A stretch of DNA of 64,000 bases from Alteromonas mediterranea DE. GTDB lineage: Bacteria > Pseudomonadota > Gammaproteobacteria > Enterobacterales > Alteromonadaceae. The notes under the pieces were generated by a model, which searched no databases, was not told where the DNA came from, and was given only the letters and a program-made list of their open reading frames with translations. The translations under genes were made by a program, and so were the position numbers. The stretch lies in assembly GCF_000020585.3 (NCBI RefSeq), contig NC_011138.3:3574140-3638139 (forward strand), read 5' to 3'. The stretch's first letter is position 1. Every line of letters starts with the position of its first letter. This document shows positions 3,421-64,000 of this stretch, piece by piece.

Positions 3421-3685
3421 GTAAAGTGAGGGCTATTTTTATTGAGCTTTACATAGTCATCATTTTTTACCGTAGTTTTTACACATTGCTTGGTAAATTC
3501 GGTGGCTAGTGAGGTAGGTCGAGAGTAAGTACAAAGCTTAGTAAGGTCGGATACGCTGAAGATCGTTGAGGTTAGGTGTTACCTCAGTTGCTTAACGATA
3601 CACGCAAAGCCAGTATTGCATAGCGATTTAAATCAATAACCGCTACGCACGGCTCCATCCAGTAAGGTGAAAGAATAAGTGGTAA
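3421..3685. other. Intergenic region with a two-tier stem-loop
   Basis: No gene seen. At 3562-3599 the outer arms ATCGTT/AACGAT enclose an inner hairpin, GAGGT/ACCTC. It could form in the transcript running from the small DUF6644 gene towards the GH13 gene, or on the opposite strand. There is no clear T-run, so its role (terminator, processing site or nothing) is open. Confidence 0.3.
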
Positions 3686-41615: not shown

Positions 41616-43357
41616 TTACTCTTTCCTCTCATTCCAAAGCACAACTTTATTTCGCCCTTGGGCTTTGGCTAAGTAGAGCGCTTGATCAGCCTCTTTTATC
41701 AAAACGTTTAGATCATCTTCTCCCGGGTACGAGCCAGAAACGCCAATACTCACCGTCACCCTAACCAACTTATTAATATCATGGCTAAATAGATGTAGCC
41801 TTAAGTTCTCTGCAATTTGCTTGGCGTAATTAGCCCGGGTATTGGGTAAAAACACCAAAAATTCCTCACCGCCCCAGCGAAAGGTTATATCCGACCCTCT
41901 CACTTGGCCCTTTATCTCTTTAGCCACGTTTTGCAGCACTTTATCGCCCATATCGTGGCCAAATTTGTCGTTGATACGCTTAAGCCAGTCTAAATCGATA
42001 AGTAAAACCGACATGTGTTTATTACTGCGTTTTCCTAATTCCCAAATGGGATAGACCAAATCTTCAAATGCCCGTCGGTTGTAAAGCGAGGTGAGCGGGT
42101 CTAATCGCGCATCTCGTTCGGCACTCAAGCGTGCCTGTTGTACTTGCTTGTAATTGAAGGCCAGAGAAATCGACAGCAAAGACATTTCTAAAACCATACC
42201 AATTTCGATACCGCGAAATGCCCATTTCGAATAGCTCACTAGTCCCCACGTAGCGAGACTTGATACCGTCGCGCCCCCAGTTCCACAGAGTACCGCAGCA
42301 GAAAAAACTTAGCCAGTGTATCGCCATTTCTGTAAGCAAAAATACCGATAGCTAACATCCAAAGTGAAATTGTAGTTAGCACGACAAGTTGTGACATAAC
42401 AGCGAAAGAACGGCTACCGACTAAAATAATCAATACTGCCAGCGCCCCTAACCCTCCGTAAATGTACTTCCTGTTTCAGTAAAGCTTAGGTAAGTAAAGT
42501 TGAGTGTTGAGAAACTCAATGGTCAACCGTACGGCGCTAAAAAGGTAAAAGAACATTAGCGTGGGCATAAGCCCCTGCTGAAGGAATACAGAGTCAGACC
42601 ATACCCACCAAAAACCGTGCCCCGTATAGGTGAAATTAAAAGCCAGAAAAGAAAGAAGGTACAAGGAATATAGTAAATACCTTCGCTCTTTTAGGTAGCT
42701 ATATAAAACCAAGTTATAAACCAAAAGAATAACCAATGAACCGTAAAGCGCACCATAGAAATAGGCGTTTTCAGTAGACTTGTCGTTGGCGATGACGGGC
42801 TGGCCTAGATAAACCGGAATGGTCATGGGGTCTTGAGATGAGAACCTGAAAACAACGATAGTTTGTTGCTGGGTAAATCGATAAAAAACGGAAGGCATTC
42901 TAGCGCGCTCGGCCCGCGCGCTGTGTATTTGGTTATCGCCCAATGTAACGTGATGCTTTCTTTCGCCGTTTTCAAAGAAATACACGTCAATATCGTCCAA
43001 CCAAGCGTTGTCTATTTCTATGACTAAAGGCAAGAAAGGAAAACTTTCTGATAGATTATGGGGATCGCTCGTTACGGGTTCACCGTAGGTATTGATATCA
43101 ACAGGCAAAACACCCCATATAGTGTTGTTCGTAAACCCATAACTCACTTGCCCTGATGTGTTTTTAGTGAGCAACCGGCCTTCATATTTAGCCATAACCT
43201 CTTCGGCAGAGAGTGCACTGCCACTTTCCTGCAACATCCACAGCTTGTCATTAACTAGCTGCATCCCTCCTGAAGGGTCTATGCTTTTCGCATGCGCAAG
43301 TTTGCACAATAGGATGCTAATAACAACAAAACCAGCGAAGAAAAGAAAAGCTCTCAT
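41616..43357 (-). pseudogene. 7TMR-DISM sensor diguanylate cyclase, broken by stop and frameshift
   Basis: Three fragments make one sensor. Residues from 43357: signal peptide (ILLCKLAHAKS), 7TMR-DISMED2 periplasmic domain (AYFYGALYGSLVILLVYNLVLY starts the 7TM part). A TGA at 42476-42478 follows LYLPKLY; the same frame goes on NRKYIYGGLGALAVLIIL. At a C5 run (42274-42278, G5 on the coding strand) the frame shifts; one more G would give GGATVSSLATWGLVSYSKW and the rest. The last part is a GGDEF domain with RWGGEEF intact and DPLTSLYNRRAFEDL. An intact version would make cyclic di-GMP in response to a periplasmic ligand. The homopolymer indel could be technical; the stop is less likely to be. 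Confidence 0.8.
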
Positions 43358-43654
43358 ATATCTATTCTTTCTAATGTCGGGGTAATCTGCGGGACGATTC
43401 TCAATAACAGCAAACCTAACTCTTAATAAATATTAACTTACGCTTATTAAACACGTTTGTGAATACTTATTAATCACAAGATGTGGGCCACTGCGCATTT
43501 TTCTTGTCGTATCTTGAAATTTCTCTTATGCATCAAAGAAGAACGTTGGCATACTGTGTTATCACGCGCTGCACTTCAGTTCAGCTCCAGATCATTCTCT
43601 TTGAAATCCAATAAAAGGCCTGGTTCTTTTTATGCTCAGCTTTGTCACCAGTAC
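43358..43654. other. Non-coding stretch beside the IS5-type element
   Basis: About 297 nt between the DISM gene start and the IS left end. It should hold the DISM promoter. No part of the missing response-regulator output domain is recognisable here on either strand, which points to a deletion next to the IS. A plus-strand frame of about 60 codons runs into the IS but has no protein-like features. Confidence 0.4.
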
Positions 43655-44708
43655 GGCTTTGTTGCTTAATTCAGAGAGAAGACATGCCTGTCCTATAGTG
43701 CTTGATTCTTAAACGATATACTGAGTTTCAGGCATACCTAACCCTGTAAGCTTATTCAGCGCCTTGATCATAGCGTAAGTCTCGCCAACTTGAGCGTTGT
43801 AGTTTCTCAGGCTTAATTTCCCACCTAACAACTGTTTCACTCGATACATTGCTGTCTCTGATAGCGAGCGCTTGTGATAGCCGTACTGCTTTTTCCACAT
43901 CTTGTTCGAGCCGTAAAGCTTCTGACAACCTACCGCTAAATTGCGAGGATGCCCACGTTCCCAGAAGGCTGCCCCTTCTCGTGGCGGGATAAGCGGAACC
44001 GCTCGTTTGATTCGTATAGCATCATAGCAACCCTTTGTGTCATAAGCACCATCACCTGATATCTCAATGATTTTACGACGTGTCTGCTTTAGCAAGTTAG
44101 GGAGCACTTCGGCATCGGTTACGTTAGACAAACTCAGCTCTGCTGCGACGATTTCGTGGGTGTGCGTATCTACTGCGATGTGCAGCTTACGCCATACTTT
44201 GCGCTTCCCATCAGTACCATGCTTCTTGACCTTCCATTCACCTTCGCCATAAACCTTAAGACCAGTAGCACCAATGGCTAGATGTTGTATTGGTCCTCTG
44301 TTTTTGGTTTTAAATGAAACCTCAACTTCCTTAGCTCGGCGGCTTATACAGGTGTAGTGTGGGCAAACAAGCGGGATGTTAGCCAGCTTAAATACTGAGT
44401 CTAGAAAACCTTGCAGCGCTCTCAATGGCATAGAGAAAACGCGCTTCACCATCAGTGCGGTAGTAATGGCTAAGTCGCTGAATCGGCGAGGTCTACCACG
44501 CTTGCCTTGTTTGTTTTGCTTCCACTCGACTATCGCTTCCTCATCAATCCAAAAGGTCAGAGAACCACGGTTAATTAAGGCTTTATTGTACTGCTTCCAG
44601 TTAGTTGTTTTATAACGAGGTTTAGGCATGAGGCTACGACGATTGATGGGTGTAGCCGATCAGATCGTCGCTTCTTGATTTAGTTCCATCGATTTAAGCA
44701 ACAAAGCC
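43655..44708 (-). mobile_element. IS5-family (IS903 subgroup-like) insertion sequence, 1054 bp
   Basis: Perfect 15-bp terminal inverted repeats: GGCTTTGTTGCTTAA (43655-43669) and TTAAGCAACAAAGCC (44694-44708), very like those of IS903. One full-length transposase lies inside. The flanks (caccagtac and tcgaacatg) show no 9-bp duplication, although this group normally makes one. That suggests an adjacent deletion or recombination after insertion. Confidence 0.9.
43709..44629 (-). CDS. IS5-family (IS903 type) transposase
   Basis: 306 aa. It starts like IS903 transposases (KTTNWKQYNKALINRGSLTFW). The DDE domain has Asp in HIAVDTHTHEIVAAEL, Asp in ISGDGAYDTKGCYDAI, and the Tyr-Arg-Glu region near YRVKQLLGGKLSLRNYNAQ. 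Length is normal and the frame intact, so the element may be mobile. Confidence 0.92.
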   Translation of the reverse strand: MPKPRYKTTNWKQYNKALINRGSLTFWIDEEAIVEWKQNKQGKRGRPRRFSDLAITTALMVKRVFSMPLRALQGFLDSVFKLANIPLVCPHYTCISRRAKEVEVSFKTKNRGPIQHLAIGATGLKVYGEGEWKVKKHGTDGKRKVWRKLHIAVDTHTHEIVAAELSLSNVTDAEVLPNLLKQTRRKIIEISGDGAYDTKGCYDAIRIKRAVPLIPPREGAAFWERGHPRNLAVGCQKLYGSNKMWKKQYGYHKRSLSETAMYRVKQLLGGKLSLRNYNAQVGETYAMIKALNKLTGLGMPETQYIV

Positions 44709-44959
44709 TCGAACATGCTGAAAAAGATGATTTTTAAATCTGGATGTCGCTTCAAAAAAATCTTGGCTAAAACAAGGCCACTTTCATTTGAAAGGTTTAT
44801 GTCTAGGATTAAGATCTCAATGTCACTACTGGCTAATAAACGATGGGTTTGCGCGCCGTTTTCAGCATCAAAAATACGACAATCAGGCATCATGGCGTTA
44901 AGCAATGCTTTGTAGCCCTCTCTTACCACGGCGTGGTCGTCTACAATGAGGATATTCAT
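44660..44959 (-). pseudogene. NarL-type response regulator truncated by the IS5-type element
   Basis: Only the first part of a receiver domain is genuine (44709-44959, about 83 residues): MNILIVDDHAVVREGY with the acidic pocket, and the phospho-acceptor Asp in ILILDINLSNESG. The remaining residues come from the IS end. The Thr and Lys switch region and the entire LuxR-type DNA-binding domain are missing, and were not found beyond the IS. The start overlaps the kinase stop by 4 nt (ATGA). The receiver is similar to the intact regulator at 61739 (both have LDI-L-NESG). Confidence 0.85.
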
Positions 44960-46215
44960 GCGACATTTGCGCCTAACATAGGCGGCTCTTTTCTAAGTGT
45001 TAGAGAGAGCGACACGGCAACTCCGCCTTCATCGGGCGATGCGACGCTACAATTTGCGCCAATACAGCGTGCCCGACTTCGCATTGACGACATTCCAATA
45101 TTTTCTACTATATGATTTCCAAGGCCTCGACCATTGTCTTTAACTGTCACAGTGACGCTATGCGTATCGCCAAAAATTTGAATGCTAACCTTTGTGGCTT
45201 TAGCATGTTTAATTACGTTGTTAATGGCTTCTTGAACAAAACGATAAAGGTGGATGTCGCGCTCGGTATCCTCCTGATACCGCTTCAGGTTAATTGATAC
45301 GTCCCATTGAGTGCCAGGTTGCGCTACTTCTTGTTCATATACTAAGCGCTCAAGCGATGCCTGTAGCGATACTCTATCTAGTACAAGAGGGTGAAGGTGA
45401 GCCGTGAGTTTTCTTATAGCGTCACTTATTTGGTGTGACATCACCTGCACTTTCTGAGCCGAAAGCTCTACCACCGAACGCTCTTTAGTGTTGACTAGAA
45501 TATACGCATGAGCTTTTATCGTAGTCAGCAATTGCCCCACGTTGTCGTGAAGCTCCCTGGCTAAATAGTTTCGCTCTTGCTCTTGAAGTAGCGCCAATTG
45601 TTTGTCGATTTTAATCAGCTGCTTTTCTTTGGCATCTAGCGCGCTTTTTAGCTGCTGGAATTGGTTAATTACCCTGTTCATTTCAGCAATATCTGAGTGA
45701 GGAAGCGGCTGTGTGGCTTTACCTTCTCGTAACTTCGAAAGCGCGTCGCCAAGCTGTTTTAATGGCACAAGCCGCTGCCTGACGGCAATGCTTAATGTAA
45801 ACAGTAGTAAAACAAATGTTGCAAAGAAAAGGCCTGCCACTAAAGCAAAAAACGTAAGGTTTTGGGTTAACTCCGTATTCTCGAAAGGAGTGACAATAAG
45901 GTACTGATTCTCTTTTATGGGGATAATAACGGGCACTAATACATTTTGCTGGTTAACGGTGTTTACTTGAGTTTGGTCTGTGCTCAAGCGCCCTGAAAAG
46001 TATTTGGAAGATAAATGAGGACTTGGCTTAACAATAGCCTCAATGTCAGAAACAGGTACATTGCGTCTGACCATTTCCCGCACTTGGTTAAGTGCGCCTG
46101 TCATTTCTTCTTCAATATTGTTTTGTATATGAAAATAAACAAGACAGGTAAAGAGTAAAAAGCAGCTAATGAAAACGGCCACTATCGCTGTAGATATTTT
46201 TGTAAAACCCGACAT
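44956..46215 (-). CDS. NarX/UhpB-type sensor histidine kinase (HisKA_3)
   Basis: About 419 aa. An N-terminal helix (ISTAIVAVFISCFLLFTC) is followed by a small periplasmic domain (about residues 35-115), a second helix (FFALVAGLFFATFVLLLF), a HAMP-like linker, the dimerisation domain with phospho-acceptor His in LARELHDNVGQLLTTIKAH, and a GHKL ATPase with QEAINNVIKHAKAT (N box) and VKDNGRGLG (G1). I chose the ATG at 46215 (MSGFTKIS, AGAGG upstream); a longer frame begins at 46299 inside a palindrome. Its partner regulator is truncated, so the kinase has no known output unless it cross-talks. Confidence 0.85.
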   Translation of the reverse strand: MSGFTKISTAIVAVFISCFLLFTCLVYFHIQNNIEEEMTGALNQVREMVRRNVPVSDIEAIVKPSPHLSSKYFSGRLSTDQTQVNTVNQQNVLVPVIIPIKENQYLIVTPFENTELTQNLTFFALVAGLFFATFVLLLFTLSIAVRQRLVPLKQLGDALSKLREGKATQPLPHSDIAEMNRVINQFQQLKSALDAKEKQLIKIDKQLALLQEQERNYLARELHDNVGQLLTTIKAHAYILVNTKERSVVELSAQKVQVMSHQISDAIRKLTAHLHPLVLDRVSLQASLERLVYEQEVAQPGTQWDVSINLKRYQEDTERDIHLYRFVQEAINNVIKHAKATKVSIQIFGDTHSVTVTVKDNGRGLGNHIVENIGMSSMRSRARCIGANCSVASPDEGGVAVSLSLTLRKEPPMLGANVA

Positions 46216-46297
46216 GACTGCCTCTGCAACCCCTTTAATACAGAGCCATGCTATACAGGCCGCGGTGAAAAGCACATCCTGCAATAGGGGCGAATTC

Positions 46298-46315
46298 ATC
46301 CTACCAAGGTAGGAT
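46298..46315. promoter_or_regulatory. 7-2-7 inverted repeat upstream of the histidine kinase
   Basis: ATCCTACCAAGGTAGGAT: two 8-bp perfect arms with a 2-bp spacer, centred about 90 nt before the preferred kinase start. The 7-2-7 layout of TCCTACC/GGTAGGA is the arrangement recognised by NarL/LuxR-type regulators. It may have been the autoregulatory site for the now-truncated regulator. Confidence 0.5.
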
Positions 46316-61738: not shown

Positions 61739-62395
61739 ATGAATATACTGATCATTGACGATCATGAGATAGTACGGGACGGAATCAAAGCGCTCATTGA
61801 ACAAGAGTATGGCTGGCACGTTGTTTATGCGGTAGATTCGATAGGGGCGCTTCCCTCCTACGCATCGTTTGATGAAGTCGATGTCGCCATTTTGGATATC
61901 TCACTGGTAAATGAAAGTGGCTTCGACACCCTGGTAAAGATTAAGCAGCAAGCGCCTTTTGTAAAATGCTTAATGCTTAGCATGTACGAACATGTCGGCT
62001 ATATCAGCAAAGCGCTCGAACTTGGAGCCGACGGCTACGTAACGAAAAACGCAGCGACGAAAGAGTTAATGAACTCATTAGAGTCGCTGGAAAGAGATGA
62101 AAACTACTTAAGCTCTGATATTAGCAAGAAATTAGCATTTGGAGACAAGTGCTTAACCTCGCTCCTCACCGATAGAGAAAAAGAAATTTTTCTACTTTTG
62201 GCAAAAGGGTTTCAGCCCAAACAAATTGCCTACCACATCGATACCGCCCCCAAAACGGTCATGGTTCACAGAACGAATATTTATAAAAAATTAAACGTAA
62301 CCTCTCAGTTCGGATTGCTAAGAATTGCATTGGAAATAGGTTACCTTGATGTTTACGATGTCATTAATGACGATGCATTAGTCAAAACCATTTGA
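61739..62395 (+). CDS. NarL/FixJ-family response regulator
   Basis: 218 aa. Receiver domain with the acidic pair (IIDDHE), phospho-acceptor Asp53 (AILDISL), and switch Lys in GYVTKNA. LuxR-type HTH at 150-205: LTDREKEIFLLLAKGFQPKQIA, TAPKTVMVHRTNIYKKL. Intact. Its stop overlaps the start of the next gene (TGATG), so the neighbour should be its kinase, but that protein has lost its kinase domain. Confidence 0.92.
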   Translation: MNILIIDDHEIVRDGIKALIEQEYGWHVVYAVDSIGALPSYASFDEVDVAILDISLVNESGFDTLVKIKQQAPFVKCLMLSMYEHVGYISKALELGADGYVTKNAATKELMNSLESLERDENYLSSDISKKLAFGDKCLTSLLTDREKEIFLLLAKGFQPKQIAYHIDTAPKTVMVHRTNIYKKLNVTSQFGLLRIALEIGYLDVYDVINDDALVKTI

Positions 62396-63882
62396 TGAGT
62401 TTGAAACCGTACATAAACACTTCGTTTTTGTTCATGGGGTTGATGTACACCGCCCTATTTCACAGCGTATGGCTAATCAGCACCCAGTTCGAAATAATTG
62501 CCAGTACGGTAAGCTGGTATTTGCCCGCAGGCGTCCGCTTTGCTGCGTTTATGCTACTTCCCTTACGAAGCTGGCCTATACTGCTTTTTTCAGAAAAACT
62601 CACTCACTTTGTTTTATTTCACCCTGGTGGAATACTCGATAACACCGCATTTTTAAGCGGTAGCTTAGGGTGGTATCTTGTTCATTTACTCCTATCACCC
62701 GCTTTACTTTGTACTAGCGTTTATATCTTCAGACGCTGTTTTAAAGCACCTTATATCAGCAACATAAACAGCACGCTTGCCACACTCGGGGTCGGTTTAA
62801 TTATTAGTGTTGTACTTGGGGCCGTCTTTATTGGAAGAAGGGCGATAGAGCTTCAAACTGATATCACGGTGTTTTTTCCCCTACTTTTTGATTTCTCATT
62901 AGGTGACTTTGTCGGCCTCATCGTACTGTGCCCTCTTCTCTTTGTATTATACGATCGTGAGCACTTACACCGGGTCAACACCACCCTGTATTGGATAATT
63001 GGCGCTTGGCTATTCTTGCTGTTACTAAGTAGCTATGCCTATAGCCACGGGACGAATATTAGCTACCAAGTAAAATACCTTGCTGTATTCCCCGCGTTGT
63101 TCCTATCCTATCGCTATGCAGTTACGGGCAGCGCTTTATCCTGCTTATTAGTGGGGGTAACCGCCTTTGTTGTGGCAATTCAAAGCGATTTGTCTCCGCT
63201 TGAACATCAATTTTATATCATCGCGCTGTGTGTAAGCTGCCTTATTCTAGGCGCTTCGGTGAATCACGCTGAGCAGATGGGTGGCGAGCGATTAATGGGC
63301 CCTGTTTTTAAGAAGGTCACTCATTTCATTGGGCGCCCTCATAACGATGATGAGTTCGTTGAACTAGAAGTATACGCGGGCGGCATGGTTGCTGTTGAAG
63401 CTGAGCTAGTATTCGAGTTAGGAAAAGAAGTTACTCCAGGTTCAATTGATACTAAGGTGCCACTTAAACACCTAATTAACGCAGTCTATGCCGGCGTTGA
63501 AATAGCCTCAAGCCCGGTAATAGACTTAAATAGCTATGGACCTACTGCAATCATCAGCGATTTTGGGGTTAACCAAGGGATGGTCGTTGGCGCACCTATC
63601 GAGCAATGGGATTCAGTGATTGAGAACATACAGACCTCTGTATTTATCAACAATGAACATATTAACTCTGCCCCTTCTAACAACGTATTGCGTGGCCCTA
63701 TGGCTGCCGTGGCATATTTAATTGATCAAGCTGCGGCACGCAACATTACGCTACCTAAAGGCTGTATGATTTGTTCTGGTGCTATCACCGGTGTTCACGA
63801 CACCGTTGTCGGGGCTAGCGCTACGGTAAGCTTTGAGGGCATTGGCAACATCAACATGAAGTTAATTCCTGTCACGCCATAG
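62395..63882 (+). CDS. Chimera: MASE1 membrane sensor fused to 2-keto-4-pentenoate hydratase-like domain
   Basis: 495 aa. Residues 1 to about 290 form a MASE1-type sensor with eight or so helices (WYLPAGVRFAAFMLLPLRSW, FDFSLGDFVGLIVLCPLLF, YLAVFPALFLSYRYAVTGSA), as found in front of histidine kinases. After NHAEQMGGER, at about residue 300, the sequence becomes a soluble hydratase of the FAA-hydrolase/MhpD superfamily: AVEAELVFELGKEV, YAGVEIASSPVID, LRGPMAAVAYLIDQ, GCMICSGAITGVHDTVVGA. No HisKA or ATPase motifs are present. About 60-70 residues of the hydratase N-terminus are also missing. ATG 62395 overlaps the regulator's stop. A deletion that joined two genes is the simplest explanation. 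Whether the product is stable or has either function is unknown. Confidence 0.8.
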   Translation: MSLKPYINTSFLFMGLMYTALFHSVWLISTQFEIIASTVSWYLPAGVRFAAFMLLPLRSWPILLFSEKLTHFVLFHPGGILDNTAFLSGSLGWYLVHLLLSPALLCTSVYIFRRCFKAPYISNINSTLATLGVGLIISVVLGAVFIGRRAIELQTDITVFFPLLFDFSLGDFVGLIVLCPLLFVLYDREHLHRVNTTLYWIIGAWLFLLLLSSYAYSHGTNISYQVKYLAVFPALFLSYRYAVTGSALSCLLVGVTAFVVAIQSDLSPLEHQFYIIALCVSCLILGASVNHAEQMGGERLMGPVFKKVTHFIGRPHNDDEFVELEVYAGGMVAVEAELVFELGKEVTPGSIDTKVPLKHLINAVYAGVEIASSPVIDLNSYGPTAIISDFGVNQGMVVGAPIEQWDSVIENIQTSVFINNEHINSAPSNNVLRGPMAAVAYLIDQAAARNITLPKGCMICSGAITGVHDTVVGASATVSFEGIGNINMKLIPVTP

Positions 63883-63930: not shown

Positions 63931-64000
63931 CCTCCTTTTGTGCTACATTGTCGTTGATTTCACACATATTTTGACAGTTTTATGCATAAAATCTCTTTTG

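Follow-up and report, generated by a model that had tools for sequence, protein, structure and literature searches.

The open reading frame that follows an intact NarL/LuxR-type response regulator in the window, as we call the whole 64-kb stretch of DNA analysed here, is very probably the scar of a recent in-frame deletion of about 2.0 kb. As far as sequence comparison and a predicted structure can tell, this deletion joined the membrane sensor of a histidine kinase to the larger part of a 2-keto-4-pentenoate-hydratase-like protein, gave a product that is probably functionless, and left the regulator without its kinase.

The fused frame and its join

The regulator gene (61739-62395, plus strand) encodes 218 residues in which both expected Pfam domains score above their cut-offs, the receiver (Response_reg) at 77.1 bits and the GerE/LuxR DNA-binding domain at 59.6 bits, and 14 further genomes of the genus contain orthologues that are 64-88% identical across most of the length. 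The gene is thus intact, as an earlier note on this DNA had proposed, and its neighbouring kinase is gone. In the place of the kinase lies a frame of 495 codons (62395-63882, plus strand), open throughout and without a stop codon, for which the ATG at 62395 is a likelier start than the alternative TTG at 62392 given in the list of open reading frames (496-residue numbering). Its kinase-derived part (62395-63279, plus strand) corresponds to kinase residues 1-295 and contains a MASE1 membrane sensor, which Pfam places at residues 14-289 in the 496-residue numbering (39.5 bits against a cut-off of 29.8), or approximately 13-288 in the 495-residue numbering used below. The hydratase-derived part (63271-63882, plus strand) corresponds to residues 72-274 of a 274-residue MhpD/HpcG-type protein and gives a sub-threshold FAA_hydrolase match (331-488, 496-residue numbering). 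In a Pfam search of the fusion protein neither HisKA_3, the DHp domain with the phosphorylated histidine, nor HATPase_c was present, in agreement with the earlier statement that no kinase motifs are left.

Near-identical intact counterparts of both halves are found in the protein database. P0002 is a kinase of 536 residues in which Pfam recognizes MASE1, HisKA_3 (327-381) and HATPase_c (426-535), and it differs from the MASE1 half of the fusion at five of the 295 shared residues (98% identity). P0012 is a hydratase of 274 residues that differs from the C-terminal part at a single position out of 203. These two proteins give strong support to the earlier suggestion that a deletion fused two genes and orphaned the regulator. 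The in-frame switch from sensor to hydratase-like sequence, also described in that note, occurs at 63271-63279 (plus strand), where GAGCAGATG encodes Glu293-Gln294-Met295 of the fusion. The same tripeptide is present at residues 293-295 of P0002 and 72-74 of P0012; around the break P0002 reads Ala-Glu-Gln-Met-Asn, P0012 reads Arg-Glu-Gln-Met-Gly, and the fusion reads Ala-Glu-Gln-Met-Gly.

Because Glu-Gln-Met stands at the break in both intact proteins, the deletion probably ran between short direct repeats around GAGCAGATG in the kinase and hydratase genes. For P0002 and P0012 the repeat is known at the protein level, and we infer its length: seven of the nine bases must agree whatever the codon choice, and the two remaining third-codon positions vary among hydratase relatives in blastn alignments. 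In a simple simulation of random joins with equal base frequencies, chance overlaps of at least 7, 8 and 9 bases had probabilities of 4e-4, 1.2e-4 and 3.5e-5, so that if all nine bases agree, chance is a poor account of the overlap.

We consider a misassembled join very unlikely. The host genome consists of one contig (4,480,937 bases) with the fusion in one copy, and the fused MASE1 half shows the five differences from the intact P0002 noted above. We rejected an assembly artefact because a second fused allele, P0001, exists in the protein database and differs from the window copy at two of 495 residues (346 and 472). With at least two alleles and a database cluster around P0001 of 130 member sequences by cluster count, the fusion is not peculiar to a single clone. 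The window copy agrees with the intact P0012 at residues 346 and 472. P0001 carries at 346 the residue found in all 12 other aligned relatives, and at 472 that of the three closest; Val355 is common to both fused copies and is Gly in P0012, at a position that varies among relatives. Although the numbers are small, this pattern would fit a fusion that arose once and was later recombined or sorted within the population. The coexistence of near-identical fused and intact proteins in the database suggests that the fusion probably occurs in part of the species.

P0001 is the only protein that spans both halves, both among 53 protein-database matches (7999 best candidates scored) and among the 40 matches of a search centred on the junction. 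No second species with a MASE1-hydratase fusion was found among the genus, protein-database and junction-centred matches. Scans of collections from which records of this or very near genomes may be missing gave no relative of the fusion among viral contigs, no match among plasmids, and two unfused relatives among genome contigs. Among the papers listed on NahK, MhpD, MASE1, the FAH superfamily, Alteromonas fusions and orphan regulators, no title or abstract opening mentions such a fusion. In the public record, the 523-residue MASE1 histidine kinase P0007 of Alteromonas portus is named 2-keto-4-pentenoate hydratase, a name that was possibly copied from a fused relative of this kind.

Gene order in relatives and the lost segment

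The fusion protein was searched against 59 genomes of the genus, the window's own counted, of which 26 matched at E <= 0.001. Only the window's own genome gave a full-length match. A MASE1 kinase in 13 other genomes matches approximately residues 1-300 at 44-72% identity, in open frames of 523-565 residues, and a hydratase in six genomes other than the window's own matches from residue 293 to 493-495 at 68-89% identity, in frames of 281-310 residues. The matches in G003 and G026 are distant and of kinase type (23-25% identity), that in G044 is a hydratase remnant corresponding to fusion residues 427-492, and the remaining hydratase-type matches are 22-27% identical.

Genes of the locus were grouped across genomes by blastp, each family being named from one copy, that of G022 or of the window. 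In G022, G028 and G049 a protease gene is followed by the regulator (218 residues), the MASE1 kinase (523 residues), a short-chain dehydrogenase (251 residues), the hydratase (274 residues), a thioredoxin-like gene (272 residues) and a helicase gene. These three genomes keep what the earlier note suggested looking for in related loci, a separate kinase and hydratase with the lost segment between them. The flanks are the same in the window's genome, where the fusion replaces kinase, dehydrogenase and hydratase. In six further genomes (G040, G012, G001, G023, G021 and G041) the regulator and kinase are followed directly by the thioredoxin-like gene, dehydrogenase and hydratase being absent between them, and in G033 and G007 the dehydrogenase and hydratase are present without the regulator-kinase pair.

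By blastn, counted from the start of the regulator, the window aligns with the three full loci up to 1519 and the alignment resumes at 3500. In all three the distance between kinase residue 296 and hydratase residue 72 is 1958 bases, or about 1.97 kb with the nine shared bases, and since the nearest intact kinase, P0002, is 13 residues longer than theirs, about 2.0 kb is a reasonable estimate of what the window's ancestor lost. Comparison with these relatives identifies the lost segment as the kinase transmitter, the dehydrogenase gene and hydratase residues 1-71. Transposition of the segment to another site was rejected, as the window's genome has distant paralogues only: the best match to the lost C-terminal part of the kinase is 31% identical, and the best matches to the dehydrogenase are 35-36% identical.

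We propose that the ancestral order was regulator, MASE1 histidine kinase, short-chain dehydrogenase, hydratase-like gene and thioredoxin-like gene, and that one deletion took the whole of that segment, including both the DHp and ATPase domains of the transmitter, with the frame kept by chance. The fused gene would yield a MASE1 domain in the inner membrane with an incomplete FAH-superfamily domain attached. This product would carry out no phosphotransfer, the domain for this being gone, and would very probably have no hydratase activity. The regulator stayed intact as its neighbouring kinase was lost, and the fusion would persist as a young, pseudogene-like scar.

What the hydratase half retains

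The earlier note had put forward a second possibility, a new membrane-tethered enzyme in which the MASE1 sensor directly controls a hydratase or decarboxylase domain. Several observations would suit such an enzyme, and count to that extent against a scar: the frame is open and common to at least two alleles, the structural model is of good confidence over most of the C-terminal part, and Glu114, Glu116 and Glu148, invariant in an alignment of all 38 hydratase-like database matches, are retained. These are presumably the three metal-ligand glutamates of the MhpD/HpcG/NahK class. The 130-member cluster and the dN/pS values described below, which are not clearly raised, also count against the scar reading. 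MASE1 itself is an input domain on c-di-GMP enzymes and kinases (PMC6510439).

Against a working enzyme stands what the fusion lacks. Nine of the 29 invariant columns of the 38-sequence alignment lie in the lost part of the hydratase, and the invariant Gly60-Trp61-Lys62 falls within it. Lys62 aligns to MhpD, and we take it to be the lysine of the Gly-x-Lys strand, Lys60 of MhpD in 1sv6 numbering, with a catalytic role. Strand 58-65, at which most of the wider FAH-superfamily matches start, is also gone. The intact P0012 matches the core fold of the superfamily fully (the list of PDB entries being a re-alignment of Foldseek matches), whereas the fusion copy, which begins at residue 72, differs from the MhpD/HpcG/NahK class in having neither the N-terminal region with its helices, nor the first core strand, nor the invariant lysine. 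In the structural model of the fusion, ten-residue mean pLDDT values in the hydratase part are 69-94 outside 295-310 and 381-390, mostly good confidence, but pLDDT values under 50 occur where the two halves meet (295-307), at 384-393 and in three stretches within the MASE1 half. Such a fusion is seen in no second species among the matches, and nearby and orthologous deletions, described below, point to decay. With the core strand lost, a single spanning protein in each of the sets of 53 and 40 matches, and these further deletions, the idea of a tethered enzyme is not supported, and we regard it as unlikely.

We also asked whether the retained parts evolve unusually fast, using NG86-type counts. 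The regulator was represented by 12 of its 16 genomes, the kinase by 10 of the 15 in which kinase sequence is present (the fusion and the G037 remnant being among the 15), and the hydratase by seven genomes. The mean dN/pS of the regulator is 0.134, compared with 0.114-0.144 for nine close relatives and 0.229 and 0.353 for the distant G041 and G048. The MASE1 part has a mean of 0.295, marginally higher than its eight close relatives reach (0.238-0.291), the distant G041 being at 0.472, and the hydratase part has 0.152, compared with 0.139-0.190 for five relatives and 0.363 for the distant G007. Clear relaxation of selection is seen in none of the three parts, in a test that has little power for a recent event because synonymous changes approach saturation (mean pS about 0.6-0.9) and the fusion is younger than most of the divergence. 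Changes since the split from the intact P0002 and P0012 are too few to serve as evidence.

Other deletions and the regulator left behind

At E <= 1e-40 a search with the regulator matched 17 of the 59 genomes. Without G026, a distant match at 41% identity, there are 16, of which 15 match most of the regulator and one, G056, matches residues 1-117 only. Thirteen of the 16 have a long kinase frame and three, the window's genome, G037 and G056, have an internally deleted kinase. In G037 the kinase is cut to a 155-residue C-terminal piece (L038 11073-11540) that has lost the sensor and DHp parts, with full-length regulator, dehydrogenase and hydratase genes beside it. In G056 an in-frame receiver-HATPase_c chimera of 282 residues (L070 1495-2343) lacks the DNA-binding end of the regulator as well as the sensor and DHp parts of the kinase. 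Both resemble the fusion in being internal deletions of the same two-component pair, and differ from it in their breakpoints and in what became of the regulator, which is whole in G037 and has lost its DNA-binding end in G056. From the different breakpoints and hosts we infer that the three deletions arose independently.

The genes that follow the fusion are also damaged. The thioredoxin-like gene, which starts at 63982-64000 (plus strand) and continues past the window (L034 8122-8739), is shortened to 205 residues, compared with at least 272 in relatives, by a 131-base frame-breaking deletion. Farther downstream, a GGDEF-EAL gene (L034 10752-12970) consists of two overlapping frames of 283 and 456 residues where relatives have one gene of about 700 residues; the split apparently stems from a short frameshift, which could be a sequencing error. 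These two broken genes fit relaxed constraint around the fusion.

Elsewhere in the window, an insertion element lies at approximately 43653-44710 (minus strand), with a transposase at 43709-44629 and GGCTTTGTTGCTTAA-like inverted ends that are alike at 15 of 16 bases. On the same strand, 41616-43357 holds a 7TMR-DISM sensor fragment of 293 residues with a partial 7TM domain and, after it, a GGDEF frame of its own, 207 residues long; the two, close to the insertion element, may be pieces of a broken gene for a membrane diguanylate cyclase.

We considered whether loss of the kinase might have rewired signalling, such that a different kinase now acts on the orphan regulator at 61739; one candidate would be the HisKA_3 kinase at 44956-46299 (minus strand). 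This kinase is the genome's best match to the lost transmitter, and the regulator next to it is itself broken: it is 100% identical to a G021 regulator over 85 residues and then stops at the insertion element, its remainder not being found within the window by tblastn. The regulator-less kinase and the kinase-less regulator, the latter intact and conserved, lie approximately 15 kb apart. However, kinases and regulators are as a rule specific partners, 31% identity to the lost transmitter does not point to cross-talk, and the genome has two further kinases with HisKA_3 above the Pfam cut-off, three in all. That two half-broken two-component pairs in one 64-kb window complement each other is a speculation to which we give little credence, as we do to rewiring in general. 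If true, it would be a naturally rewired signalling pair soon after its formation, with the MASE1-hydratase fusion as a by-product.

UhpB-like MASE1 kinases (HisKA_3 and HATPase_c) coupled to a NarL-type regulator have the same sensor half and the same regulator coupling as the fusion, which differs in lacking the DHp and ATPase domains. The kinase relatives themselves fall below the UhpB cut-off: of the two intact kinases that were checked domain by domain, that of G022 and P0002, the former has UhpB as its best NCBIfam model (1.1e-39) at 136.6 bits against a cut-off of 408. The fusion is most likely an ordinary deletion product rather than a new kind of sensor-enzyme, and annotators should call it neither a functional hydratase nor a functional kinase. 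With an internally deleted kinase in three of the 16 genomes that have the regulator, each at different breakpoints, the locus offers a small natural series on the fate of a regulator after its kinase is lost, and the fusion neatly illustrates that what looks like a new domain architecture can arise from an in-frame deletion.
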